NCBI GenBank assembly: GCA_937889545.1
Contig: CALAOT010000105.1
Coordinates: 1 to 64,000 of the forward strand
Direction of reading: 5' to 3'
Source of the DNA: an uncultured Opitutaceae bacterium
GTDB lineage: Bacteria > Verrucomicrobiota > Verrucomicrobiia > Opitutales > Opitutaceae
DNA: 64,000 nt
A program made the position numbers and the translations under genes. The notes below the pieces were generated by a model. That model made no database searches. It saw only the letters and a list, made by a program, of their open reading frames with translations, and was not told where the DNA came from. Position 1 is the stretch's first letter. Every line of letters starts with the position of its first letter. Shown here piece after piece: positions 335 through 25,929 of this stretch.

Positions 335-952
335 CTAGGTGAAGGACTCCCCGAGGCTGGGGTGGGCGATCAGGAAATCGCCCTCCAGGGTTTGTGACGG
401 CTTTCCCTCGAGCAGTTTGTGAATGTCGGGGTGCGTGTCCAAGAATTCGTGAAGCGCGGGGACATCAGGGCGCATCATGGGGCCGCGCGCGAGGCGCGCG
501 ATGTGGGGGTGAATCGGGAATTCAGGTTCGGCCTTGAGAGCAGGGGCGATTCTGGGCTTCTGCTTGAATAGTACGTCGATATCGGGGTCTTTCCTCCGGA
601 ACTCTTTTCCGGCGAGCTGATCGAGATTATTGCGCACAATCTCTTCGAGCTTCGGATTGGCATCCAATACCTGATCGAATTCCATCAGAGTCTTTTGTAC
701 CGCTTCGTCCAACGAGACGATAGGCAAGGTCCCCTGAAGGTTAATTGGCGTCCATTCATGGCAACATACCCGCTCTGGGGCCGGACAGATGTATGGCGAG
801 CCCGCTTTTGCGCCGCATGTCCTGCAATCATATACGGCCAATGCCCCATACCGCCTTGGTGAACCTTTCGTTATGTTTGTGATCCCCTTTCTAACACGCG
901 CACACGCAACCGGCCTGCATTCCTGCCCGAAGCCCATGAACCTCTCCGCCAC
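335..952 (-). CDS. Hypothetical protein with degenerate NP/HP repeats
   Basis: A 205-codon minus-strand frame. Its C-terminal 120 residues carry an irregular repeat of the form (A/T)(N/H)P-x-(L/I)-x-x-(I/L)-(V/L), seen in ANPKLEEIV, THPDIHKLL and AHPSLGESF. I recall similar helical repeats in uncharacterised proteins of Verrucomicrobiota and Acidobacteriota. The N-terminal part has several cysteines (CRTC, CP, CC) and no signal peptide. The start at 952 overlaps the first codons of the divergent ubiB gene by 17 bases. A shorter version from a TTG at 727 with GGGGA upstream is possible. It may also be a decayed gene. No function is assigned. Confidence 0.35.
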   Translation of the reverse strand: MAERFMGFGQECRPVACARVRKGITNITKGSPRRYGALAVYDCRTCGAKAGSPYICPAPERVCCHEWTPINLQGTLPIVSLDEAVQKTLMEFDQVLDANPKLEEIVRNNLDQLAGKEFRRKDPDIDVLFKQKPRIAPALKAEPEFPIHPHIARLARGPMMRPDVPALHEFLDTHPDIHKLLEGKPSQTLEGDFLIAHPSLGESFT

Positions 953-2606
953 TCATTTAAAACGGTACAGACAAATCGCGGTATTGCTGTGGAAATACGG
1001 CCGTTCCGACATCGTGCAGCAGATGGCGGTGCAAGACGGGTTCGACCCGGAGGAACTGAAGGCGGATGCTAACGATGCTGCCCCGGAACAACTGGCGGAT
1101 GACCTGGAAAAGATGGGACCGACCTATGTCAAACTGGGCCAAGTGCTCGCGGGCCGGCCCGACCTCCTTCCAGTGCCCTATCTCAAGGCGCTCGCGCGGC
1201 TTCAAGATAAGGCCAAGCCTTTTGCCTATGAAGAAGTGGAACAGATCCTATTGGCGGAACTGGGAGTGCGGGTTTCCAAGGCGTTCTCCCGCTTCGATAC
1301 CGAGCCCATCGCCGCCGCGTCGTTGGGACAGGTCCATCTTGCGGCTCTTCGCGACGGCCGCCAAGTGGTGGTCAAAGTTCAAAGGCCCGACATCCGCCGC
1401 CAGATTGCCGACGACTTTGAAGTGCTAGCCGAGATTGCCAGTTTTCTCGACGAACACACGGAGATCGGCCAACGGTACCGATTTGGCGCCGCCGTGGCTG
1501 AATTCCGCACCGTCATCCAACAGGAGCTCAATTACGAGCGTGAGGCTCAAAACCTCATCGCGGTTGGGAAGAACTTAAAAGAGTTCAAATTGATCCGGGT
1601 GCCCCAACCCATTCTCGACTACAGCACCCGCAGCGTCCTTACGATGGATTACATTAAGGGCCAAAAGATCACTACGCTCGGATCTTTGGCCAAACTCGAC
1701 ATCAAGGGGGCGCTCCTCGCCGAGGAGCTGTTTCGGGCCTACCTGAAGCAAGTGCTAATCGACGGCCTCTTTCACGCTGATCCCCACCCGGGAAATGTGT
1801 TTATCACGGACGACGGCCGGATCGCCCTACTCGACCTCGGCATGGTGGGACACACCGCCCCGGCGATGCAGGAACATCTCCTCAAGGTTCTCATTGCCGT
1901 AAGCGATGGGAAAGGTGATGAGGCCGCTGAAGAGGTCGTGCGAATGAGTGAGAAGGCCGACTCCTTCGACCTGCACAAATTCCGACAGCAGATTGGCCAG
2001 CTTGTGGCGTCGAGCCGCAATCAGGGGCTCCGAGAGCTCAATGTCGGCCAATCGCTTCTGGATGTCAGCCGGCATGCCAGGGACAACGGCCTGTTTGTTC
2101 CGAGCGAACTCGTCCTGCTCGGCAAGACCCTGCTCCAGTTGGATGAGGTGGGTCGCATACTGGATCCCACATTCGATCCCAACGCCTCGATCCGCCGCAA
2201 CGCTGGGGAGATTACGTCGACCCGCATGGTCCGGGAAACCTCGCAAGGCAGTGTGGTCAATACGTTGCTCGAACTGAAAGACTTCACGGTCAACCTACCC
2301 TCCCGGCTGAACCGGATCATGGATGCGCTCGCCAATGCCGAATTGGAGGTGAAGGTGAGGGCGACGGACGCGAAGATGGTTGTGGACGGAATTGAGAAAG
2401 TAGCCAACCGGGTCACCAAAGGCATCCTTCTCGCCGCCTTGATCATAGGCGCGGCTTTGATGATGCGAATCGACACCCATTGGCGCTTCTTTGGCTACCC
2501 GGGATTCGCGATGCTCTGCTTCATCGGGGCAGCAGTCGGAGCGCTCGTCCTCCTCTACAATATTTACGCCGAGGACCGCGATAGCCGGAAGCGCCGTCCA
2601 CACTAG
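936..2606 (+). CDS. ubiB: ABC1/UbiB-family atypical protein kinase-like protein
   Basis: An AarF/ABC1/UbiB-family membrane protein of 556 aa. The family has a protein-kinase-like fold with ATPase activity and supports ubiquinone or other isoprenoid-lipid biosynthesis. Visible signatures are the KxGQ motif (YVKLGQVL), the Ala-rich nucleotide loop followed by the conserved lysine (AAASLGQVH, then VVVKVQRP), the catalytic-loop equivalent DPHPGNVF and the DFG-like LLDLGMVG. The last 60 residues form two hydrophobic helices ended by a charged tail, the usual C-terminal anchor. The ATG at 936 is preferred because the family begins about here; an in-frame ATG further upstream (789) would add 49 residues without resemblance to the family. 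It is monocistronic, with a decayed gene downstream. Confidence 0.9.
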   Translation: MNLSATHLKRYRQIAVLLWKYGRSDIVQQMAVQDGFDPEELKADANDAAPEQLADDLEKMGPTYVKLGQVLAGRPDLLPVPYLKALARLQDKAKPFAYEEVEQILLAELGVRVSKAFSRFDTEPIAAASLGQVHLAALRDGRQVVVKVQRPDIRRQIADDFEVLAEIASFLDEHTEIGQRYRFGAAVAEFRTVIQQELNYEREAQNLIAVGKNLKEFKLIRVPQPILDYSTRSVLTMDYIKGQKITTLGSLAKLDIKGALLAEELFRAYLKQVLIDGLFHADPHPGNVFITDDGRIALLDLGMVGHTAPAMQEHLLKVLIAVSDGKGDEAAEEVVRMSEKADSFDLHKFRQQIGQLVASSRNQGLRELNVGQSLLDVSRHARDNGLFVPSELVLLGKTLLQLDEVGRILDPTFDPNASIRRNAGEITSTRMVRETSQGSVVNTLLELKDFTVNLPSRLNRIMDALANAELEVKVRATDAKMVVDGIEKVANRVTKGILLAALIIGAALMMRIDTHWRFFGYPGFAMLCFIGAAVGALVLLYNIYAEDRDSRKRRPH

Positions 2607-2860
2607 AAACCAAAAGGAAACCGCGGCAGCTCGGCTCGTGCCATCCTGGAAGATCCGCCGGACCTCCCCCAGCGATCGAGCTCATGGCCGTTGCCGCGAA
2701 CGAAATGCCACGGCGTGCCGCACGGCAAACCGGCTGTAGAACTTCGCCCCCGTTTTGCGCCTGCCAATATCCCCTCTGAGGGCAAGCCCAGCCTCGCGCG
2801 CCCCGAATGATCCGGAGTAATCCGCCGCTGTCGCCGTGCCGCGGTAGTCTCCTGTCCGCA
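2607..2860 (-). pseudogene. Remnant of a DUF6807 (PmoA-like) gene
   Basis: Read on the minus strand, bases ~2855-2780 encode RGTATAADYSGSFGAREAG, almost the same as RGAATAADYSGSFGGREAG in the intact ThuA-DUF6807 gene at 17.5 kb. At DNA level a stretch of about 60 bases (2795-2855) is nearly identical to 17475-17525. Beyond the match the frame reaches a stop, and a neighbouring frame continues with PWHFV, which may be the eroded equivalent of the PWYVI motif that follows in the intact copy. No start codon or full domain remains. I read it as the last trace of a second gene copy; it also shows that the neighbouring sigma-factor gene must start downstream of about 2860. Confidence 0.6.
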
Positions 2861-2902
2861 ATGGTCGTAACCGCTTTACAACTCAGCTCTTCCTATCAAA
2901 CC

Positions 2903-3613
2903 ATGCTCACGTCGCCCGGTCCCAACGACCGAGCGGTCACTTCGCGGCAGGAGGCGCGGCATGACGCCGAGTTGGTGCGCCGATTCATCGCGGGGGACGA
3001 GGGTGCGTTCGCCGAGATCGTCACTCGATTTCGCGGAAGGATTTTCTCAATCGCGTTAAGCCATCTGCGCAACCATGCCGATGCCGAGGAGATAACTCAG
3101 CACACCTTCATCCGCGCCCACCGCGGCCTGACGCGTTTTCGAGGCGACTCCTCGCTCGCCACATGGCTGCACCGGATCGCCTTCAATCTCTCCCGCAACC
3201 GCTGCAAGTATTATTCCCATCGCCGCCAGCATGCCACCCTCTCGCTCGACTACGCCTTCAGCCACGACAATCAAGCGACTGTCCCCGATCTGATCGCAAG
3301 TGATGCTCCGGACCCGGCCCGGGAAGCGACAGCTGGCGAGTTTTCTGCATTCGTCGCCGTGTGCATGGACAAGCTTGGCCCGCGCCAGCGCGAAATACTC
3401 GCGCTGCGCAAAGGATTGGAGCAATCCTATGGTGACATCGTCCGGGAGCTCGGGATCAGCATTGGCACCGTAAAGAGCCGGATCGCGCGAGCCCGCGAAA
3501 GGCTCCGCGCGCTTCTTGCGCAGTCATGTCCCGAATTGCCGCCGGATGCTTCGTCCTTCGACTGGTTCGAGCCCATCCAAACCTGTGGCCGTGTGATAGT
3601 TGTCTGCGGCTGA
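2903..3613 (+). CDS. RNA polymerase sigma factor, ECF/sigma-70 family
   Basis: An extracytoplasmic-function-type sigma factor. Region 2 runs from ELVRRFIAGDEGAFAEIV through DAEEITQHTFIRAHRGL and FRGDSSLATWLHRIAFN, which covers the -10 recognition helices. Region 4 holds LGPRQREILALRKGLE and a helix-turn-helix IVRELGISIGTVKSRIARARERL for the -35 element. Zinc-binding anti-sigma partners or sensory domains are not fused to it. The start is uncertain: ATG at 2903 gives 236 aa, ATG at 2861 adds 14 residues; the start at 2807 would lie inside the DUF6807 remnant and is unlikely. The last 25 residues after region 4 are unlike the family. No anti-sigma gene is adjacent, so its regulation is not visible. 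Confidence 0.85.
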   Translation: MLTSPGPNDRAVTSRQEARHDAELVRRFIAGDEGAFAEIVTRFRGRIFSIALSHLRNHADAEEITQHTFIRAHRGLTRFRGDSSLATWLHRIAFNLSRNRCKYYSHRRQHATLSLDYAFSHDNQATVPDLIASDAPDPAREATAGEFSAFVAVCMDKLGPRQREILALRKGLEQSYGDIVRELGISIGTVKSRIARARERLRALLAQSCPELPPDASSFDWFEPIQTCGRVIVVCG

Positions 3614-4355
3614 GCGCAACCGCCGCAGTCGGCTCGGTCAAGTGATTGATATCCGGACGCTGCTCTCGATCATTCCCCGCGCGATCGCGTAGCGGGACGA
3701 TCCTCATTCATTACGCTTGATATCGCGCAACTAGGTCCGGGCACTTCGTGAACCTCGACGAGCGCCTGCTCAATCTGCGGGCCGACGGCTTCCGGCCGCG
3801 GGCGAAGCCGAGCCCATGGAGGCATCCGCACCAGCGAATACTTGCCTCGCTGGCACTCCTCCTATGGGAATCCGATGAAACCGACGACCCGGCTTTAAGA
3901 ATACGCATCCAGACTGAACTCAATGCGCGTGGGAGCGGCCTCAACGAACGGGTCGCCGCATGTCGGGCACTCTGGAATCGCGTCCGATGGCACGCGGCGG
4001 CGGTATTCCGGCTGGCGCACCGGGGCAGAGATGACGCCTCGCGCCGCGGCCCCGCGCAGATTGACCTCGGCGATCCTTGTGGCGACCTGAGACCACAGTC
4101 GATGCGTCCAACCGTTCGCTGATGAGACGCTGATTGTCCCCGAAACGCTTTGGAATGCCGCCAGCCAGGCCTTTGGCCAGAAGGCATGATTTTGAATTTG
4201 CAGTTTCACCGCCTCGATTCCCCGTCCGGGCGCAGTGGGGTCAACGCCCAATTCCGGGCCATTTTCCACCGTCGTTGCTCGACAGATCCTGGGTTATGGA
4301 GTTCCCTTGGCTCCTAACCGATGCAGGTAGAGGGCAGCGGCTGAGAATACCGACA
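3614..4355. other. Intergenic stretch without a confident gene
   Basis: About 740 bases between the sigma factor and the CheB-CheR gene. It contains one copy of the interspersed repeat (3678-3757). Both strands have open frames of 124-158 codons here (plus 3748-4122, minus 3895-4269 and 3711-4187), but none has a recognisable motif, and two on opposite strands cannot both be real. The minus-strand frame 3895-4269 has a CPTC pair and a fairly protein-like composition and would be the first choice if a gene exists. Confidence 0.4.
3678..3757. repeat. Interspersed repeat, copy 1
   Basis: Matches 8501-8580 in the same orientation. The shared order is a GC-rich block (CCGCGC...GCGGGACGATC), a 10-base spacer that differs, then ACGCTTGAT and a homologous ~35-base block ending CTTCGTGAACCTC here and TTTCGTGCACCTC in copy 2. 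In both places the minus strand encodes TKCPDLVAR(Y/H)QA followed by a stop. It lies downstream of the sigma-factor gene. It may be a REP-like element or a piece of two eroded paralogous genes. Confidence 0.6.
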
Positions 4356-7115
4356 ATGAAGAATCGAGCCAAATCAAAGCGAGCAAAACACCGATCGGTC
4401 AAGACGGCTTCGAATCGCCCAATGTCCTCGCAATCGGCGTACCGTCCCTTTCCCATTGTGGGCATCGGTTCCTCCGCCGGGGGGCTGGAAGCGTTGGCCC
4501 AGTTTTTTGGCAATGCACAGGCGGACATCGGGATGGCATTTGTGGTCATTCAGCACCTGGATCCCACGCTGAAGGGAATGATGCCCGAACTGCTGCAGCG
4601 GGTCACCGCCATGAAAGTGGTGCAGGTGAAAGACGGTTCAATGGTCCGGCCGGGCTGTGTGTACGTGATTCCTCCGAACAAGGATATGTCCATACTCCAT
4701 GGGAGGCTGCACCTGCTCGACCCTGTTGCGCCCCGCGGCCTGCGGCTGCCAATCGACTTCTTCTTTCGCTCTCTTGCCGAGGACCAACACGAGCTCGCCA
4801 TTGGAGTCATCCTCTCGGGAATGGGCAGCGACGGGACTCTGGGCATCAAAGCCATTAAAGAATATGCGGGTTTGGTTCTGGTGCAGGAACCCGCCTCGGC
4901 GAAATTCGACGGCATGCCGCGCAGCGCCATCGAGGCGGGGCTGGCGGATTTTGTAGCCCCTGCTAAGGAGTTGCCGGGCAAGCTCATTGATTACCAGCGG
5001 CATGTGCCCCGTATCGGAAGATCCGAGGCCCGGCTGGAGGACAAGATGATAAGCGCACTCGACAAAGTGATCATCCTGTTGCGCTCGAACACCGGACACG
5101 ATTTCACGCACTACCGTCGGAGTACGCTCTATCGGCGCGTCGAGCGCCGAATGGGCATCCACCAGATTGTCCAGATCGCCACCTACGTCCGGTTCCTGCA
5201 GGAGAATCCCCAGGAGCTGAGCATCCTCTTCAAGGAACTGTTGATTGGCGTCACAAGTTTCTTCCGCGACCGATCCGCGTGGGCCCAGCTTGAGAAAAAG
5301 GCTCTTCCGGCGCTGGTCGCCAACCGGCCGGCTCGCGCCGTGTTGCGCGCTTGGGTCGCGGGCTGCTCGACGGGTGAAGAAGCATATTCCCTCGCCATGC
5401 TTTTCAAGGAGACTCTGAGCCGCGCCAGATCCACGATGGGTCTGTCCCTGCAAATCTACGCCACGGACCTCGACCGAGATGCAATCGATAAGGCACGCCA
5501 GGGCTTCTATCCGGAAAACATAGTCGCCGACGTGTCGCGGACCCGGCTCGACCGATTCTTCGTCAAGGAAGAGAACGGCTACCGGGTGAACAAAGAGATC
5601 CGGGCGATGGTCGTCTTTGCGCCGCAAAACCTGATCATGGATCCGCCGTTCACTAAGCTGGATATCTTCTGCTGCCGGAACCTGCTGATCTATCTGACGC
5701 CGGAATTGCAGAAGAGGCTTATCCCGCTGTTCCACTTCATTTTGAATCCCCAAGGCCTGCTTTTTCTCGGGAACGCGGAGAGCATCGGCAGCTTCACCAC
5801 CCTATTCTCTCCGATTGTTCCAAAGGAACGGATTTTCCGGCGATGCGAAACCGTCCTGAAAGGCGTTCAGCTGGATTTCCCCGCCGAGTTCACGGCGGCT
5901 GCGGCATCCCGTTCGATACCGGCTACCGAGTCGCGCCTCCCCGTCGCTAGTCTCCAGTCGCTTGCGGATCTGATGCTACGGACGCGATACGTCCCGCCCG
6001 CGGTGTTGGTCAACGAGAACGGCGACATCATCTACATCAGCGGGCGCACGGGCAACTATTTGGAGCCGGCGGCCGGCAAGGCCAACTGGAACATCATTGC
6101 CATGGCTCGGGAAGGATTGAGGTATGAACTTACAAGCGCCCTGCAGAAGGTTAATCGAACCAAGGAATCGGTCGCCATAAGTGGTGTGAAGGTCGGAGTC
6201 GGTCCCGAAGAGCGAACCGTGAATGTTCATGTGCAGGCGCTTCAAGAGCCCAAGGAGCTCCTCGGTATGGTTCTCGTGGTGTTTAGCGACGCTGTCCCCG
6301 AGATTAAAATGCACCCGGGGGCAAAAGGGAGGAAAGCGCCGGTACTCTCCGCCAGGCAGGGAGGCTTGGAACTGGAACTGCGGCACACCCGCGACGAGAT
6401 GATGGCACACCGCGAGGAGATGCAGACCTCGCAGGAGGAGCTCAAGTCTGTTAACGAGGAGCTTCAGTCCACGAACGAGGAACTACAGTCAACCAACGAG
6501 GAGCTGATGACGTCGAAGGAGGAAATGCAGTCGCTGAACGAAGAACTTCAAACGGTCAACGCGGAGCTTCAGTCCAAGCTCGACGAGCTTTCCACTTCAA
6601 ACAATGACATGAAGAACCTGCTCAACAGCACCAACATTGCCACAGTATTCCTGGACAATGAAATGCGTGTGCGGCGGTTCACGCTGCAGGCGAAGAATAT
6701 CTTCAAATTTATACCGGGCGACGTGGGGAGGCCGATTACCGACCTGGCCTCCAACCTGCGTTATCCCGAACTGGCAGCGGACGCACGCGAGGTGCTTCGG
6801 ACTCTGGCCGTCGCTGAGAAACCGGTCAGCACGATCGATGGGCGCTGGTTCACAGCGCGCATCATGCCCTACCGCACGCTGGACAACAGGATTAACGGCG
6901 TGGTGATCACCTTCGCGAATATCACTGCAGCCAAGAAGCTGGAGGCCAACCTGCGCGAGAAGCACGGCCAGTTGGAGAAATTCTCTGCGCAACAGGCCTC
7001 AAGACTGGCCTCCGCCGAGGTGCGGTCGCTGTCGAAAATCGCCCGAAATGAGCCCGGCGATGCCGGTGCCCGCACGGCTCCCCGGGCTCAGACGGCAAAA
7101 AGGAGGAAACTGTGA
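4356..7115 (+). CDS. CheB-CheR-PAS fusion protein (chemotaxis-like methylesterase/methyltransferase)
   Basis: A 919 aa fusion. Residues ~30-215 form a CheB-type methylesterase domain with the catalytic Ser in GIGSSAGG, the His in QHLDP and the Asp in GMGSDGT. Residues ~225-490 form a CheR methyltransferase with the SAM loop AGCSTGEEAY and the CRNLLIYL motif. Residues ~670-750 are a strong Glu-rich coiled coil with repeats of (S/T)NEELQS, followed by a PAS domain (~750-860). No receiver domain precedes CheB, as is usual for these fusions. The ATG at 4356 is used because the CheB domain starts about 30 residues later; upstream in-frame ATGs add unmatched sequence. It overlaps the next histidine-kinase gene by four bases, so the two are probably translated together. 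No MCP, CheA or CheW gene is nearby, so the methylated partner is unknown. Confidence 0.92.
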   Translation: MKNRAKSKRAKHRSVKTASNRPMSSQSAYRPFPIVGIGSSAGGLEALAQFFGNAQADIGMAFVVIQHLDPTLKGMMPELLQRVTAMKVVQVKDGSMVRPGCVYVIPPNKDMSILHGRLHLLDPVAPRGLRLPIDFFFRSLAEDQHELAIGVILSGMGSDGTLGIKAIKEYAGLVLVQEPASAKFDGMPRSAIEAGLADFVAPAKELPGKLIDYQRHVPRIGRSEARLEDKMISALDKVIILLRSNTGHDFTHYRRSTLYRRVERRMGIHQIVQIATYVRFLQENPQELSILFKELLIGVTSFFRDRSAWAQLEKKALPALVANRPARAVLRAWVAGCSTGEEAYSLAMLFKETLSRARSTMGLSLQIYATDLDRDAIDKARQGFYPENIVADVSRTRLDRFFVKEENGYRVNKEIRAMVVFAPQNLIMDPPFTKLDIFCCRNLLIYLTPELQKRLIPLFHFILNPQGLLFLGNAESIGSFTTLFSPIVPKERIFRRCETVLKGVQLDFPAEFTAAAASRSIPATESRLPVASLQSLADLMLRTRYVPPAVLVNENGDIIYISGRTGNYLEPAAGKANWNIIAMAREGLRYELTSALQKVNRTKESVAISGVKVGVGPEERTVNVHVQALQEPKELLGMVLVVFSDAVPEIKMHPGAKGRKAPVLSARQGGLELELRHTRDEMMAHREEMQTSQEELKSVNEELQSTNEELQSTNEELMTSKEEMQSLNEELQTVNAELQSKLDELSTSNNDMKNLLNSTNIATVFLDNEMRVRRFTLQAKNIFKFIPGDVGRPITDLASNLRYPELAADAREVLRTLAVAEKPVSTIDGRWFTARIMPYRTLDNRINGVVITFANITAAKKLEANLREKHGQLEKFSAQQASRLASAEVRSLSKIARNEPGDAGARTAPRAQTAKRRKL

Positions 7116-8494
7116 AGAAGATCGTTCCCATCAAGACGAGGATGCGCCGGCAATCCGAAAGCCGGCTGAGCGGGAAACAGGCCGAGAATCCCGATCCCCA
7201 ATTCGGGCACGACACCCAGCGCCTTTTCCACGAGCTGCAGGTGCACCAGATTGAGCTGGAGCTGCAGAATGAGGAATTGAACCAAGCCAATCTCGCTGCA
7301 AAGGCTGCCCTGGAAAGATTCACGGACCTCTACGATTTTGCACCGGTCGGCTATTTCTCACTGGATGATTTGGGCGTGATGGTGGAATTGAACATGGCGG
7401 GCGCCGTCTTGCTCGGGGTGGAACGGTCCCGTCTTACCGGCCGCCGCTTCCAGCTTTTCGTGTCTCCAAGGACCCGGCCCGTTTTTCAGGAGTTTCTCGA
7501 CCGGATATTCTCCGGAAGTGGCAGGCAATATTGCGAGGTGGAGCTTCAAAGGGAAACCGGGCACTCCTTCTGGGCGGAACTCGCAGGCACATCAGTGCCG
7601 ACCGGCGACGCTCAACAGAGATTGTCCCGGATAGTGGTATCCGACATTTCGGCCCGCAGGATGGCGGAGGTAGAGCACAAACGCGTCGGGATTTTGGCCG
7701 CCAAGAACCGGGAATTGGAGAATGAGATTTCCCTGCGCAGGGCGAGCGAGGCCTCGCTCAAGGAAAGCGAGGAACGTTTTCGCGGCCTCCTGCATCAATC
7801 GCGTCTGCTGGAGAAACGGCTGCGAAACATGACGCACGAGATGCTGAAGATGCAGGAGGCAGAACGAAAGAAGATCAGCCGCGAGTTGCACGACGAAGTC
7901 AGCCAGATTCTGCTCGGCATCAATGTCCAGCTGGAGATGTTCGCGAAGGCGGTGCAGACCGACCCGCAAGCCATCAAGAAGGCGATCAAGCCCATGCGTT
8001 GGATTGTGGGAAAAGCCGTGCGCATCGTGCATCAGTTCGCCCGCGAACTTCGACCGGCGATGCTGGATGATCTAGGGCTCATTCCAACGCTGCGCTCCTA
8101 CATAAGCGACCTTCCCAAGCGGAAGGGCCGGACATTCCAATTTACGGGCTACATCGGCGTCGAATCCATGGACAATGACAGACGGACGGTGCTCTACCGC
8201 ATTGCTCAGGAAGCGATCACCAATGTCATCAAGCACGCCAATGCGAGCAGAATTGACGTAAGCATTCTCAAGATCCCGGGAGGGGTATCCCTGGAGGTCG
8301 CCGACAATGGCACGTCCTTCGATGTTGCCCAACTTGGGACCAGCCGTTGGCAGAACCGTCTTGGGGTGACCGGCATGCGCGAGCGTGTGGAAATGATCGG
8401 CGGTCAGTTCAGCGTCGTATCCGCGCGGGGCAAAGGGACGACCGTCCGGGCCGAGATTCCGTTCCCTGACCCTGAGCAGAAACCCCACCAATGA
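7112..8494 (+). CDS. PAS-domain sensor histidine kinase, NarX/DegS-type (HisKA_3)
   Basis: A 460 aa soluble kinase that starts with GTG overlapping the stop of the CheB-CheR gene (GTGA) and has a clear AGGAGG about five bases upstream. An N-terminal coiled coil (residues 35-70) leads into a PAS domain (~70-185, with DFAPVGYFSLDD), a second coiled coil, the dimerisation helix with phospho-acceptor His in ISRELHDEVSQ (near residue 260), and a HATPase with AQEAITNVIKHA, VADNG and GVTGMRERV. No transmembrane segment is seen, so it probably senses a cytoplasmic signal or works with the CheB-CheR fusion. Kinases of this class phosphorylate LuxR-type response regulators; none is encoded next to it. 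Confidence 0.92.
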   Translation: MKKIVPIKTRMRRQSESRLSGKQAENPDPQFGHDTQRLFHELQVHQIELELQNEELNQANLAAKAALERFTDLYDFAPVGYFSLDDLGVMVELNMAGAVLLGVERSRLTGRRFQLFVSPRTRPVFQEFLDRIFSGSGRQYCEVELQRETGHSFWAELAGTSVPTGDAQQRLSRIVVSDISARRMAEVEHKRVGILAAKNRELENEISLRRASEASLKESEERFRGLLHQSRLLEKRLRNMTHEMLKMQEAERKKISRELHDEVSQILLGINVQLEMFAKAVQTDPQAIKKAIKPMRWIVGKAVRIVHQFARELRPAMLDDLGLIPTLRSYISDLPKRKGRTFQFTGYIGVESMDNDRRTVLYRIAQEAITNVIKHANASRIDVSILKIPGGVSLEVADNGTSFDVAQLGTSRWQNRLGVTGMRERVEMIGGQFSVVSARGKGTTVRAEIPFPDPEQKPHQ

Positions 8495-8998
8495 AAGCCG
8501 CCGCGCTCCGCGCCGCGGGACGATCTTTTTTTTTTACGCTTGATGGCGTGCAACCAGATCAGGGCATTTCGTGCACCTCAAGGGGGCAAACCCCGGTTGA
8601 TCCGTTTGCGCCGGACACCAGCACCGTATAAGCGCAGGGAGGGAGTGTAACCAGAATGGCTGAGTCCTTTGATGTTGTAGAATGCGGGAATACGGACGCC
8701 GTGTTGAACGCGGCCTGGAGCGAAGCAGTCCCGCCCCAACCGCCATTGGAGCCCGCGACATTCTCATTCGAGTCGAATGAACGATCTTCATGGCGTCTTC
8801 CCTCCTACAGCCGAATCACCCCATGTTTCTGCCATATTTCCCGCGTGGATATTTTCCCTCGGGCAAAGGCTATAAAGCTCGAGGGCGAACGCAGGCTCGT
8901 TGACACCAGGCGCCGAATTTACGCCAGATGCGGCCAAATTGTCGAGAGCCAGGAAGAAAACCCCCTTCTCGAACCGGTGCCTGAGCTCACTGCAGGCG
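8495..8998. other. Intergenic stretch with repeat copy 2, no gene seen
   Basis: About 500 bases between the kinase and the Fic remnant. It begins with the second copy of the interspersed repeat (8501-8580), whose GC-rich block followed by ten T could terminate the kinase operon. The rest has open frames of 85-146 codons on both strands, but with no motif, no good start context and mixed composition, so I call none of them. Confidence 0.5.
8501..8580. repeat. Interspersed repeat, copy 2, with terminator-like T10 run
   Basis: Second copy of the repeat found at 3678-3757. It starts seven bases after the histidine-kinase stop codon. The GC-rich block 8501-8519 can fold on itself (CCGCG pairing with CGCGG) and is followed, after ACGATC, by ten consecutive T at 8526-8535, so on the plus strand it may act as a rho-independent terminator. 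In copy 1 the ten T are replaced by CTCATTCATT at the same spacing. Confidence 0.6.
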
Positions 8999-16368: not shown

Positions 16369-17193
16369 CTAGATAAGAGCCCGCAAGCAGGCGATGGATC
16401 GTTCGGCTTGGTCGACCGTTCCGCACTCAACGGAGAGGACGATGTCACGCCTCGCCTTCTTGCAGATTGCAATCACCCACGCCCAGTCAACTACTCCGTC
16501 ACCGCACGCGCAACCGACCGGCGTGCCGCTGACTTTACCGCGTTCAGCTTCGGACTGCGCCAAGGAGATATCCTTGGCGTGCAGGTGCACCAACCGACCT
16601 ACGACCTTCGCGAGCCATTTGCACGGATCATGGCCGCTCAGGTAGCTGTTGCCGGTGTCAAAGTTGATGCCGATGGCCGGACTATTCACCAGCTTGTAGA
16701 TGCGGTCGAGGCCGGCCGGGTGTTTGCTATACTGCTGATGCGGCTCGAGGCCTATGAGAATCCCGCGTGGCTCGGCCACTTTTGCCGCCTCCATCAACGT
16801 GTATCGCATCAACGCGTGGTCTTCTTCCTCAGTTGTCCACGCTTGCTTTGGACCTTCATCGGTGTTGACGACCGGCGCGCCGCATTCAGCGGCGAAGCGA
16901 ATAGCTTGTTTGAGGTATTCGACACCGATCTCCGGCTTGCAGAGCGGTGTGTGCGCTGAAAGGCCGGAAAGTTTGACGCCGGCTTTGGCGCAGGCGCGCT
17001 TTATGCGCAAGGGGTCGTCAAACATCGAGACACTGTGGAAATAGCCGGCTTCGCTGAGGAGCTCGCGGCCCCAGTGAACCATGGGTTCGACGTAATCGTA
17101 GCCGAGTTGGGCAGCCTTTGCGACGGCCCACTCGAGGTTCTTGTCCGCGTGGCGGACAAATTCCAGGTTAATGCCAACGTGGACTTTCCCCAT
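16369..17193 (-). CDS. Sugar phosphate isomerase/epimerase (xylose isomerase-like TIM barrel)
   Basis: A 274 aa AP-endonuclease-2 / xylose-isomerase-like TIM barrel. Metal-binding positions are visible as the Glu of IGLEPH, the Asp of NFDTGN, the His and Asp of HLHAKDI and the Glu of SVECG, the usual set for a divalent-metal isomerase or epimerase. It lacks a signal peptide, so it is probably cytoplasmic. It is the third gene of a minus-strand operon, 42 bases downstream of the ThuA-DUF6807 gene and after a Gfo/Idh/MocA oxidoreductase. That set is typical of catabolic clusters for oxidised (keto) sugars, so its substrate is probably a keto-sugar or inosose; the exact substrate cannot be read from the sequence. 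Confidence 0.88.
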   Translation of the reverse strand: MGKVHVGINLEFVRHADKNLEWAVAKAAQLGYDYVEPMVHWGRELLSEAGYFHSVSMFDDPLRIKRACAKAGVKLSGLSAHTPLCKPEIGVEYLKQAIRFAAECGAPVVNTDEGPKQAWTTEEEDHALMRYTLMEAAKVAEPRGILIGLEPHQQYSKHPAGLDRIYKLVNSPAIGINFDTGNSYLSGHDPCKWLAKVVGRLVHLHAKDISLAQSEAERGKVSGTPVGCACGDGVVDWAWVIAICKKARRDIVLSVECGTVDQAERSIACLRALI

Positions 17194-17235
17194 GAGAGAT
17201 AGCGCGGTTGATTGTTTTGTGACGGTGGATTCTTC

Positions 17236-18912
17236 CTACGGGCTCACCGACGTGTAATGCCCGGAGGCCTCGCTCAGTTGTCCCTCGCTCCAGCGACCCG
17301 GATGCATGATGACTCGGTAGCGCAGGGACATCTGCTGTCCGGCCTTAAGAGTGTGCGGCCGGTAGCAGATGACGGCCGGCGAGAAGTAGTGCATGGGAGC
17401 TTCGCTGATGACATACCATGGCGACGGGCTGTTCAGGTTCGTGGGCCAGTCAAGGATGGCAATCCCTGCCTCGCGTCCCCCGAATGATCCGGAGTAATCC
17501 GCCGCCGTTGCCGCGCCGCGGAACTTGCCGTCGGCGAATTCCACCGGGCCCCTGGTTGTGATCGCACGCGGATCGGTTATTTCCGGCGAAAGCCGAACCG
17601 ATAGCCCGGCATAACCGCCCCACGGCTGGCCGCCGGGTTCACCAGGGAGCGGCGTCCGGTCCAATACCACATCCTCGCCCCCTGCCGTGAAGATCATCGC
17701 CCAATCCTGACGGTAAGCGCCGGCCTTGTCCGGAGGCGAAATCTCGATCACACGGCGCTCGTTCAGCACCGGGTGTGCGTTGGTTGCGGGCCGGTAACCG
17801 AGATCTATCACGATGCGCGCCGAGAAGTCGGGGCGGATCTCAACTTGCGGCTCATGCCACGCGGTCTGTCCCTGGGCCACGCCGGTCTTCGGATCCTCCT
17901 CCCAGTAATTGACGCCGTTGATGAATTTCCACGAGAACCACACGGCGCGATGCCAGGGGTGATCCGCCGGCCGATCCCATGTGAGCACGGGCCCACCTGG
18001 CAGGGCCACGGGATGGAAGTGCGGTTTCGTCACATTTGCGCCGAAGTTGAATTGCCAGACAACCTGAGGGCCCTGCAGCAAGGCCACCGCGCCAGCTTCA
18101 CGCCTCCATGCTAGGGAGGCATGTGTTTCCTGGGTCGGAATGCTTTCGGGGGGCCGAATCCCGGCAACATACCGGATGCCCCCCAGGAGGTGCTGCAAGA
18201 AGAGCGGTTCGCTGAAGCTGCTCTCTGTGTGCCCCATCGCGGTATACCACATCCGCCCTTTGCCCACACTTCGGCACCACGCTATCGGGTGGTCGCCGCC
18301 CATGCTGCCGCCGCTGTAGGTTGATTCATCCACGGTAGCGAGCACGTGGGCGCGTCCGCGAGGCGTACCGTTGAAGTTGTACCATTCATCCGTGCGCTGC
18401 CAACGCACCGGCAGGCCCGCGGTGGATAGATGCGAGGGATCCTCGATACCTACTGTCGCCGGCACAATGCCGGAATGGTTCTTGAACGCGCAGCAGAACA
18501 TCTCGCCATACCATGCCCATTGATCCATGCAGGCCAGCGGCCCGTAGACCGCGCCATGAATGGCCGCGAACCCGCCGCCGTTAAGCACATAGCCCTTGAA
18601 GGCCGCCTGCTGATCGGGATTCAGTACGTCGCCCGTTACGCTCAAAAACACAACCGCCCGGTAACGAATGAGATTCGCGGACGAAATAGCGCCCGAATCT
18701 TCGGTGGCATCGACCGCGAACCCATTCACCCGGCCCAACTCGCGCAGAGCCCTGATCCCGTTCTCGATGGACGTGTGCCGATACCCCAGCGTCTTCGAGA
18801 AGACCAACATCCGGAACGCGCCATCAGCATCCGCTGCCCGGGAGTCGAGGGGCGTGACACTTAAGGCCAGCGCCGCCGCCAGCAGACCTGCGACATGCTT
18901 GAGCGCTTTCAC
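17236..18912 (-). CDS. Exported ThuA-domain / DUF6807 (PmoA-like) fusion protein
   Basis: A 558 aa protein with a signal peptide (LLAAALALSVTPLDSRA). Residues ~33-255 are a ThuA-like domain (MLVFSKTLGYRH, GGGFAAIHGA, DEWYNF, GKGRMWYTAMGH), a glutamine-amidotransferase-like fold known from trehalose utilisation. Residues ~260-550 are a DUF6807/PmoA-like beta domain (DHPWHRAVWFSW, ADYSGSFGGREAG, PWYVI, LRYRVIMHPG). Fusions of these two occur in Planctomycetota and Verrucomicrobiota sugar clusters. It is the middle gene of the oxidoreductase-ThuA-isomerase operon and probably acts outside the cytoplasm on an oxidised glycoside. A short near-identical remnant of its second domain lies at 2.8 kb. 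Confidence 0.88.
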   Translation of the reverse strand: MKALKHVAGLLAAALALSVTPLDSRAADADGAFRMLVFSKTLGYRHTSIENGIRALRELGRVNGFAVDATEDSGAISSANLIRYRAVVFLSVTGDVLNPDQQAAFKGYVLNGGGFAAIHGAVYGPLACMDQWAWYGEMFCCAFKNHSGIVPATVGIEDPSHLSTAGLPVRWQRTDEWYNFNGTPRGRAHVLATVDESTYSGGSMGGDHPIAWCRSVGKGRMWYTAMGHTESSFSEPLFLQHLLGGIRYVAGIRPPESIPTQETHASLAWRREAGAVALLQGPQVVWQFNFGANVTKPHFHPVALPGGPVLTWDRPADHPWHRAVWFSWKFINGVNYWEEDPKTGVAQGQTAWHEPQVEIRPDFSARIVIDLGYRPATNAHPVLNERRVIEISPPDKAGAYRQDWAMIFTAGGEDVVLDRTPLPGEPGGQPWGGYAGLSVRLSPEITDPRAITTRGPVEFADGKFRGAATAADYSGSFGGREAGIAILDWPTNLNSPSPWYVISEAPMHYFSPAVICYRPHTLKAGQQMSLRYRVIMHPGRWSEGQLSEASGHYTSVSP

Positions 18913-18948
18913 GGGGGCGGATCGATCGTCTTGAGCCTTTATCAGCGG

Positions 18949-20364
18949 TCACAGATGCCACGGCTTCCGCATGGAGCGGGCCTTGAGGCGCTGGTTCGCC
19001 GCGTCGTCGTTCGAAAACCGCTCGGTCTTGAAATCGAAGGTCAGTTTGCGGTTCAGGCGGATGGCGCTGTCGGCGATGTGACAAAGGGCATCGTCGGCGA
19101 CCGCCGTGTCGATGGGACTGATGGTCTCGGCCCGGCTCTTCACGCAGTCGAGGAAGTTGCGGGCGTGACCGGAGGAGCGGGTGAGCTTGATCTTGAAGCT
19201 CTCCGGGTTGAGCCGGATCAGATCCTCGGGCTGGAGGTTGATTCCAATGCGGTCCACGTGAACCCAGCCGTCCGTCCCCTCGAAGGCGGTGCCATGGTCT
19301 TCAATACGGCGATAGCGCTGTTCCCAGATGTCACGGTGAAGGAAAGGCTCGCCTGTCGGCTTGCCAGTGTTCTCGCCATTGGGCACGCCGACGAACTTCA
19401 TCGTGAGGCCGCTTGCGAATGTGTAGTCGACCTCCCAGATGGTTGCCGTGTCACAAGCGCCTTCCGCCAACCGGAAGTTCCCGCGACCCTCAACGGTAAC
19501 GGAGCCACCGAGCAATCCCGAGCCACCCCAAAGCGCTATGTCGAGCGGATGAATGCCCCAGCCCGAGATAAAGCCGAGCGTGTAGTCCGAATTGAACCAC
19601 CATGTCTTAAGTGTCCCGTCTGCGCTGCAGCGGTTCTCGGTGTAGGGACTGGATGCCGCAGGGCCGAGCCATAAGTCGTAGTCCAACTCGGGTGGCGGCG
19701 GCACCTGCTTGCGCGAGCCGCCTGGCGCGCTGCCAGGCGCCCAGACGTTGATGCTCCGAAGCGCGCCGATCTGTCCGTTGCGCACCATCTCCGCCGCGAG
19801 CCGGAAATTCCTCGAAGACCGCTGCTGGGTGCCGAATTGGAAAACGCGTCTCTTGCGGTGAACCATCGCGCGCAGCGCCTGACCCTCCTCGAGCGTCAGG
19901 CCAAGCGGCTTCTCAAGATAAACGTCTTTGCCGGAACTAACCGCCGCCAGCGCGACCAGGATGTGCCAGTGATCGGGCGTTGCTATGAGGCAGGCATCGA
20001 TGTCCTTCCGGGAGACGAGCTCCCGGAAATCATGGTAGGTCTGACAATCCTTATTCTCGTAGAAATCGTTGACCGCCTGCCGCGCAAGACCCAGTTGGTC
20101 GGTCTTTACGTCGCACACGGCAACGACGCGGCAATCCTGTTCGCCGAGGAAGTTGAGCATGTCGCCGCGGCCCTGCGGGCCACAGCCGATGACCCCGACG
20201 GTGATCCTGTTACTAGGGGCGACAGCCCCGTCCCTGCCAAGGGCCGAAGACGGGATGATGGAGGGAAACGTGGCCGCAGCGAGCGCGCATGCGGTCGTGC
20301 CAAGGAATTCGCGGCGACTGAGGGGGACCGGGCCGTCCGGTTGCGGGAAGTCTAATTGTGCCAT
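18949..20364 (-). CDS. Tat-exported Gfo/Idh/MocA-family oxidoreductase
   Basis: A 471 aa NAD(P)-dependent dehydrogenase. The N-terminus carries a Tat signal (SRREFLGTTACALAAATF). A Rossmann motif follows (VGVIGCGPQGRGD), then the family EKP signature in VYLEKPLGLTLEEG, where the Lys is usually part of the active site, and the C-terminal substrate domain. Secreted Gfo/Idh/MocA enzymes of this size oxidise or reduce sugar hydroxyls, often at C3, with the cofactor bound before Tat export. It is the first gene of a three-gene minus-strand operon with ThuA-DUF6807 (36 bases downstream) and a sugar isomerase. Two near-identical 15-base boxes upstream (20434 and 20483) may be operator sites. Confidence 0.92.
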   Translation of the reverse strand: MAQLDFPQPDGPVPLSRREFLGTTACALAAATFPSIIPSSALGRDGAVAPSNRITVGVIGCGPQGRGDMLNFLGEQDCRVVAVCDVKTDQLGLARQAVNDFYENKDCQTYHDFRELVSRKDIDACLIATPDHWHILVALAAVSSGKDVYLEKPLGLTLEEGQALRAMVHRKRRVFQFGTQQRSSRNFRLAAEMVRNGQIGALRSINVWAPGSAPGGSRKQVPPPPELDYDLWLGPAASSPYTENRCSADGTLKTWWFNSDYTLGFISGWGIHPLDIALWGGSGLLGGSVTVEGRGNFRLAEGACDTATIWEVDYTFASGLTMKFVGVPNGENTGKPTGEPFLHRDIWEQRYRRIEDHGTAFEGTDGWVHVDRIGINLQPEDLIRLNPESFKIKLTRSSGHARNFLDCVKSRAETISPIDTAVADDALCHIADSAIRLNRKLTFDFKTERFSNDDAANQRLKARSMRKPWHL

Positions 20365-24771: not shown

Positions 24772-25929
24772 CTACCAGGATATCTTTGCGCCAAACGTGA
24801 TGATGTTCGCCCGGGGATATGCGCTCTGTGGAGTGATCCCATCGCGCCCGCGCATGGTGTAGCGGTCGCAGGCGACGTCGAGCTGAAGCCAGTCGCGCGG
24901 CTTCCAGACCGCCTTGAGCCCGTAGGTGGTGGTGAACAAGGAGGACAGGCGATAGTCTGAGGAATAAGCCGGCCCGCTTGGATTGGGTGTCGTGCTCGGG
25001 ACGATGTCCGTGGTGCTCAGGTCATAATAGAAGAATTTCGCGGCGTTCTGCTCGTAGTACCTCAGGTCGGGCCCCACGGTGAACCGGTCGCCGATCTTCT
25101 GCAGCCACTGCAGCTCGACCGTGTTCGCCCTCACCCCATACGTGTCCCCGTAGAACCGGTAGCTCCCCTCGAGGGCGCCATGAGCCTCCGGGAAACCCCT
25201 GTTTATCGACGCAAACACGACGCCCGTGTTGTGCTCGCTAGGCCTGTTCTCGGCGAAGACAAGCGGGAAGAACACGCCCGGGATAACCTCAATGTTCTGC
25301 TCCACGAGCTTGTACTGGTCGCTCAGGTACCCGGTCTCCCTTCCCCAAGCCAGATTCAACGTCACCGTGGTCCGCGGATCGAGGATCTGGGTCACGCCCA
25401 TGATCGCGTTGAACGAGTGCTTTTTGACGTAGATACGCTGGGGGTCGTAGAACGTCTCGACGTCGTCGTCGTGGCCGGCAACTCCCACCAGCAGCGTGGT
25501 GTTCTTCTGGTCCAAGTCGGTAAGAGTATTCAGGGACCAACCCGTGGAAATGTAGTCGTGCTCGCGGCTCTCCGAGAGCCCGGCAGAGATGTTGATGGCG
25601 CTGAACTGCCGCGAAAGGTCGGTCTCCCAGGCTTTCCTGTGGTCGCTCAGGTGGGCAAGGGGCACCTGGTCCGAACCCGCGGGAGCGGGTAGGCCCGTGG
25701 GTGTTGCGCCCGCGATCGCATCGGTCACCGCCGTCAGCCCAAGCCGCATGTCGGCGCCGATCTCCTGGTTGGCGACGATCCCCTGGGTCTGGACGCCGAC
25801 GCGCCCGCCAGCCTCCGTGTAATTCTCGTATTTGTAGGAGAGCGAATCGTCCGAACGGGCCGCAGGGCGTGGAGACGCCACGAACAGGAAAATCGCGAGC
25901 GGGATCGCGCCGGGTCTTCGTTGGATCAT
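24772..25929 (-). CDS. DUF3570 outer-membrane beta-barrel protein
   Basis: A 385 aa protein with an N-terminal signal (LAIFLFVASPRPAARS). The mature part starts SLSYKYENYTEAGGRVGVQ and ends in a transmembrane beta strand finishing in Trp (IITFGAKISW), as outer-membrane barrels do. Alternating hydrophobic strands and aromatic residues continue throughout. It matches the DUF3570 family as I remember it, including the WSLNTLTDLDQKNTTLL stretch. It heads the minus-strand group with TlpA-like and DUF4266 genes. The function is unknown; the context points to an envelope redox role. Confidence 0.85.
   Translation of the reverse strand: MIQRRPGAIPLAIFLFVASPRPAARSDDSLSYKYENYTEAGGRVGVQTQGIVANQEIGADMRLGLTAVTDAIAGATPTGLPAPAGSDQVPLAHLSDHRKAWETDLSRQFSAINISAGLSESREHDYISTGWSLNTLTDLDQKNTTLLVGVAGHDDDVETFYDPQRIYVKKHSFNAIMGVTQILDPRTTVTLNLAWGRETGYLSDQYKLVEQNIEVIPGVFFPLVFAENRPSEHNTGVVFASINRGFPEAHGALEGSYRFYGDTYGVRANTVELQWLQKIGDRFTVGPDLRYYEQNAAKFFYYDLSTTDIVPSTTPNPSGPAYSSDYRLSSLFTTTYGLKAVWKPRDWLQLDVACDRYTMRGRDGITPQSAYPRANIITFGAKISW

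Follow-up and report, generated by a model that had tools for sequence, protein, structure and literature searches.

A 67-bp fragment of DUF6807 coding sequence at the upstream edge of a sigma-70 gene in an uncultured Opitutaceae bacterium

The locus between ABC1 and the sigma-70 gene

The window analysed here comprises the first 64,000 nucleotides of a contig from an uncultured Opitutaceae bacterium. A sequence-only reading had described positions 2607-2860 as the remnant of a DUF6807 gene nearly identical to an intact gene 15 kb away. The match is real (59 of 67 bases), but it covers 67 bases at 2778-2844 and not the whole of 2607-2860. It lies between an ABC1 gene and a copy of a sigma-70 gene, and the features relevant for its understanding are the following:

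789-2606, plus strand: ABC1 atypical-kinase gene, the left neighbour (Pfam; same-genus homologues)
2607-2777, no strand assigned: 171-bp spacer separating the fragment from the ABC1 stop (no own-genome match below E 0.01)
2778-2844, minus strand: 67-bp fragment of DUF6807 coding sequence, without start or stop of its own (88% DNA match; codon-by-codon comparison)
2845-3613, plus strand: sigma-70 gene copy with ATG at 2861 and a stop ending at 3613, including 16 bp of native upstream sequence (Pfam regions 2 and 4; paralogue alignment)
17236-18912, minus strand: intact ThuA + DUF6807 gene of 558 aa (Pfam PF06283 and PF14100)

The real start of ABC1 is probably later than 789, since its six same-genus homologues (75-83%) align only from residue 13-45 onward. 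For the spacer at 2607-2777 nothing convincing was found as a source in the own genome, the genus, plasmids or Pfam; own-genome matches all had E-values of 0.01 or more, Pfam gave none and the genus only short weak ones. The sequence from 2841-2844 onward is common to sigma-70 paralogues. Two candidate likenesses were rejected. The 28 bases at 2672-2699 (AIELMAVAA) resemble a nuoB-type gene of the own genome (PF01058) with E-values at chance level (0.085 and 0.076); this likeness recurs in several genomes and is best taken as chance, because the nuoB-type gene is itself conserved. A 23-base exact match to another genome (G002, E 1.1e-4) falls at the start of a different gene, named isomerase-like by reading, and is probably chance as well. 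In the first 700 bases after ABC1, two of the six same-genus neighbourhoods (L011, L014) share a related gene, a third (L016) carries a piece of that gene in reversed orientation, and the other three have nothing long in common.

The match to the intact ThuA-DUF6807 gene

Comparison of the window with itself aligns 2778-2844 to 17455-17521 without gaps over 67 bases, of which 59 (88%) are identical. When 2607-2880 was used as a query against the own genome (128 contigs totalling 4.33 Mb, at 92% completeness), this place was the second best after the query itself (E 1.5e-17) and the next one followed at E 0.012; no second strong copy besides 17455-17521 was found in this 92% complete genome. 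The match is too strong for chance: when 2607-2860 was dinucleotide-shuffled 100 times, no shuffle shared more than 38/67 with the intact gene, compared with the observed 59/67. Read on the minus strand, the fragment encodes residues 465-486 of the intact protein, RGTATAADYSGSFGAREAGLAL as compared to RGAATAADYSGSFGGREAGIAI in the intact gene, with 18 of 22 residues identical, and tblastn recovers it too (E 1.3e-5), so that the similarity to DUF6807 coding sequence is both significant and in frame. Codon by codon, there are three silent differences and four residue changes, all of them mild (A/T, G/A, I/L, I/L), and neither a stop codon nor an indel interrupts the comparison with the intact gene. 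The eight base changes fall on first (3), second (1) and third (4) codon positions. Third positions are hence not specially preserved, as four of the eight changes lie there, although few changes including at third positions had been claimed. No alignment with DUF6807 extends into 2607-2777 or 2845-2860, and both edges are sharp. Pfam assigned no family to the reading frame holding the fragment at an E limit of 10, for which 22 residues may be too short. An artefact of assembly is very unlikely to explain this arrangement: the window is a contig start in a fragmented draft of 128 contigs, which would favour a chimera, but a misjoin would hardly give a 67-bp piece, 12% divergent, between two sharp edges.

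The intact gene carries both domains (ThuA, PF06283, E 3.1e-67; DUF6807, PF14100, E 4.9e-45), and when the own genome was scanned with PF14100 at E <= 1, this gene was the only one among the matches listed. The fragment resembles such a PF14100/PF06283 fusion in encoding residues 465-486 of a protein with that domain; unlike a member of PF14100, it holds 22 residues of a 270-position family and is not a gene. Further pieces of the ThuA-DUF6807 gene were not found among the best 40 of 55 own-genome candidates scored; one additional weak match on contig C116 (E 3.6e-4, 73% over 77 bases) is to the oxidoreductase gene beside the ThuA-DUF6807 gene. That gene is part of a minus-strand cluster at 16369-20364 comprising oxidoreductase, ThuA-DUF6807 and isomerase-like genes, and the same order recurs in a Pedosphaera MAG (L103; best segment 61%, neighbours identified by eye). 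The 12 other genomes of the genus gave weak matches to the DUF6807 half, the best among those listed having an E-value of 8.9e-7, and the ThuA-DUF6807 gene may have arrived horizontally.

The sequence-only reading had further proposed that the most conserved part of the gene was retained, which is not the case. In 20 homologue loci, picked from the available DUF6807 loci (three more that were submitted gave no match), the mean conservation of the 22-residue slice was 0.473, compared with a median of 0.491 and a maximum of 0.795 over all windows, resulting in rank 163 of 275. Since L123 is identical to L104, the rank was also determined with the remaining 19 loci (165/275); with seven more homologues (26 loci) it was 148/275. 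With the six closest homologues only, it was 99/275 (0.629; median 0.598, maximum 0.833), somewhat above the median, and the slice is not specially conserved in the family. What does stand is the identification as a fragment of a DUF6807 gene copy: against the 59/67 bases and 18/22 residues shared with the own-genome gene, the 20 homologue loci share at most 43/67 bases and 13/22 residues (L124 and others at 13). As an unrelated locus (L140) has 47/67 bases in common with the fragment, above any homologue, the homologue values are near background, while 59/67 is not. The fragment derives from the lineage's own gene, since no homologue tested exceeds 43/67 bases; the high identity is due to common origin with the own-genome gene and not to constraint, and a duplication within the lineage, as had been suggested, fits these values.

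The fragment was detected in its own genome only, in searches of 57 genomes (best 8 or fewer candidates per genome), of 13 genomes of the genus (best 40 or fewer) and of 372 genomes sampled from the order (best 2 or fewer), each set including the own genome. Three other genomes of the order gave matches (E 1.6e-4 to 6.5e-4), L140 being one of the three loci; these were discarded, as tblastn with the DUF6807 domain matched none of them at E 1e-3. A 21-base core of the fragment has no exact match in viral_contigs, phages gave no match at E 1e-5, and ten plasmid records contain short matches (best E 0.02). With two strong places in the own genome, the fragment does not have the distribution of a mobile or repeated element. 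The intact gene that the sequence-only reading would have expected at this position in a relative was sought with the ThuA-DUF6807 protein by tblastn in six same-genus ABC1 neighbourhoods, more than 7 kb downstream being covered in four and under 1.5 kb in two, and nothing better than E 0.78 was obtained. The match ends at 67 bases and no gene lies here in the relatives examined, the two outcomes which that reading had itself named as speaking against a remnant; adjacent further pieces, which would likewise mark the remnant of a whole gene, were not seen either.

The right-hand joint and the control region of the sigma-70 gene

The homology of the sigma-70 gene to its paralogues begins at 2841-2844, where the DUF6807 match ends. 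In the own genome, paralogues are present on C84 (83%, from 2844) and C126 (76%, from 2841), blastn giving the same starts at 81% and 74%, and a more distant one is present on C104; homologues also occur in other genomes (query 2607-3613, 57 genomes including the own). By alignment, the copy in the window starts at ATG 2861. On C84, a divergent gene encoding BON domains (PF04972, E 1.1e-43) is located upstream of the sigma gene, and such a gene precedes sigma at 7 of 9 sigma loci tested; tblastn with the C84 BON gene found a homologue at 75-86% in six of the eight other loci, and none in the stretch compared of L052 and L037 or in the window. Altogether 24 sigma loci were compared, 22 of them distinct, of which ten align from residue 1. 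Eight of these ten relatives have the element CACCCC at -45/-46, and the other two (L045, L039) have ACCCCAT within 60 bases upstream of sigma. The 12 loci aligned only from a later residue, which were not counted, lack CACCCC at -45/-46 of that point, so conservation of this control region is limited to the nearer relatives. CACCCC is absent from the 300 bases before the sigma start in the window; this copy retains GTAGTCT just before the start, and the DUF6807 fragment occupies the place of the CACCCC element. From this comparison, the fragment appears to have replaced part of the usual control region of the sigma gene.

Upstream of the sigma paralogues at L050, L051 and L053, CACCCCAT is followed after 19-22 bases by GTA. 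This pattern occurs at nine places in the own genome, compared with one for the reversed control, three of the nine being at the sigma/BON loci on C84 and C126 from which the pattern was derived, and one lying in the window at 25132-25161; it could possibly represent the promoter of a small regulon.

The sigma gene itself is still open, and as its dN/dS of 0.32 with the C84 paralogue falls within the range of all 15 pairs computed (0.21-0.36), it is not clearly released from selection. We consider it very unlikely that the fragment is functional, either as antisense RNA against the ThuA-DUF6807 mRNA, carried on a transcript reading through from ABC1 into sigma, or as a promoter of the sigma gene. 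By orientation, plus-strand RNA over 2778-2844 would be complementary to the mRNA of 17236-18912, and the sigma gene has stayed open at this dN/dS despite the missing CACCCC; however, a transcript starting just after GTAGTCT would exclude the fragment, which was found in no relative searched, and the copy carries a His (QHTF, 3101-3103) where five aligned homologues have Asp (QDTF). It is more improbable still that the fragment, stemming from a metabolic-type gene, took over the upstream half of the conserved control region, rewiring this sigma copy, with read-through RNA acting as antisense to the ThuA-DUF6807 mRNA. Such a takeover, to which the geometry and the missing upstream element lend the only positive support, would tie the sigma copy and the ThuA-DUF6807 gene together.

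A probable rearrangement scar

In our view, 2778-2844 is most probably the scar of a rearrangement and has no function. Illegitimate recombination would have fused a ThuA-DUF6807 copy of this lineage, whole or as a short piece, to a sigma-70 gene that had been relocated or duplicated. The junction would lie between CACCCCAT, the upstream element that is conserved, and GTAGTCT immediately ahead of the sigma start, the two presumably forming a promoter. The remainder of the DUF6807 copy would then have been lost or would never have arrived, and the fragment has come to be 12% divergent from the intact gene. This explanation is supported by the ungapped 67-bp match, for which the own genome yielded no further strong copy, by the sigma homology to C84 and C126 beginning where this match ends, by the BON gene and the CACCCC element missing here and present at 7/9 sigma loci and in 8/10 relatives, respectively, and by a slice that is not specially conserved and that was found in no other genome among the candidates scored. 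Against a scar count that the open frame and the mild changes fit former coding sequence equally well, that the left edge adjoins 2607-2777, a sequence without traced source, which leaves the left junction unaccounted for, that no relative yielded an intermediate state, and that two of the nine sigma loci (L052, L037) also lack the BON gene within the stretch compared and the 12 sigma loci aligned only from a later residue show no CACCCC at -45/-46 of that point.

Two forms of this history can be considered. It is close to an even prospect, if slightly short of it, that the fragment is the last remnant of a full-length DUF6807 paralogue which once lay between ABC1 and sigma and was removed by flanking deletions, as suggested by the mild protein-level changes in an open frame and by a tail resembling that of a secreted protein, which also survives as a fragment beyond the sigma gene (about 3710-3760). 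None of the relatives examined, however, has a DUF6807 gene at this site, and searching for other pieces of it gave none (best 40 of 55 own-genome candidates; only the weak match on C116). Alternatively, and somewhat less likely, break repair would have copied 67 bp of the intact gene, which lies 15 kb away, into this site as filler DNA, in which case no whole second gene was ever present here. The two sharp edges, the small size and the failure to find anything else of the gene would agree with a filler patch, as would the word GTCGCCGTGC at the junction in the window, which is also present upstream of the G010 sigma gene, the DUF6807 gene having GTTGCCGCGC there; but this shared word is short and could be chance. 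By their codon positions the eight differences fit a former gene and a patch alike, and they cannot decide between a whole second gene and a short copied patch.

As a scar, the fragment is ordinary genome debris. It resembles prokaryotic pseudogene fragments and intergenic remnants (for example PMC522871, PMC9336565) in being short, truncated, homologous to a gene elsewhere and located in an intergenic spacer; it differs from them in its length of only 67 bp and in its position at the edge of a regulator gene with paralogues elsewhere. It shows cleanly how a gene scrap can mark the joint of a rearrangement, and how a sigma factor copy can lose the conserved upstream element and the BON neighbour with its reading frame still open; otherwise its general importance is small.

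Several minor observations concern the sequence to the right of the sigma gene. A 71-bp repeat (79%) is found on the minus strand at 3686-3756 and 8509-8579, which we take to be the C-terminal tail of a secreted-type protein (ALVEVHEVP; LVTLPPCAYTVLVSGANGSTG...LEVHEMP), and a stretch related to it follows the sigma gene on C84 (L050). The sigma gene of the window seems to have gene scrap on both sides, as the DUF6807 fragment lies on one side and this tail on the other. At 4134-8494, a gene fusing CheB, CheR and PAS precedes a PAS histidine kinase gene, and translated matches to this kinase are present close to the sigma homologues of L051 and L053.
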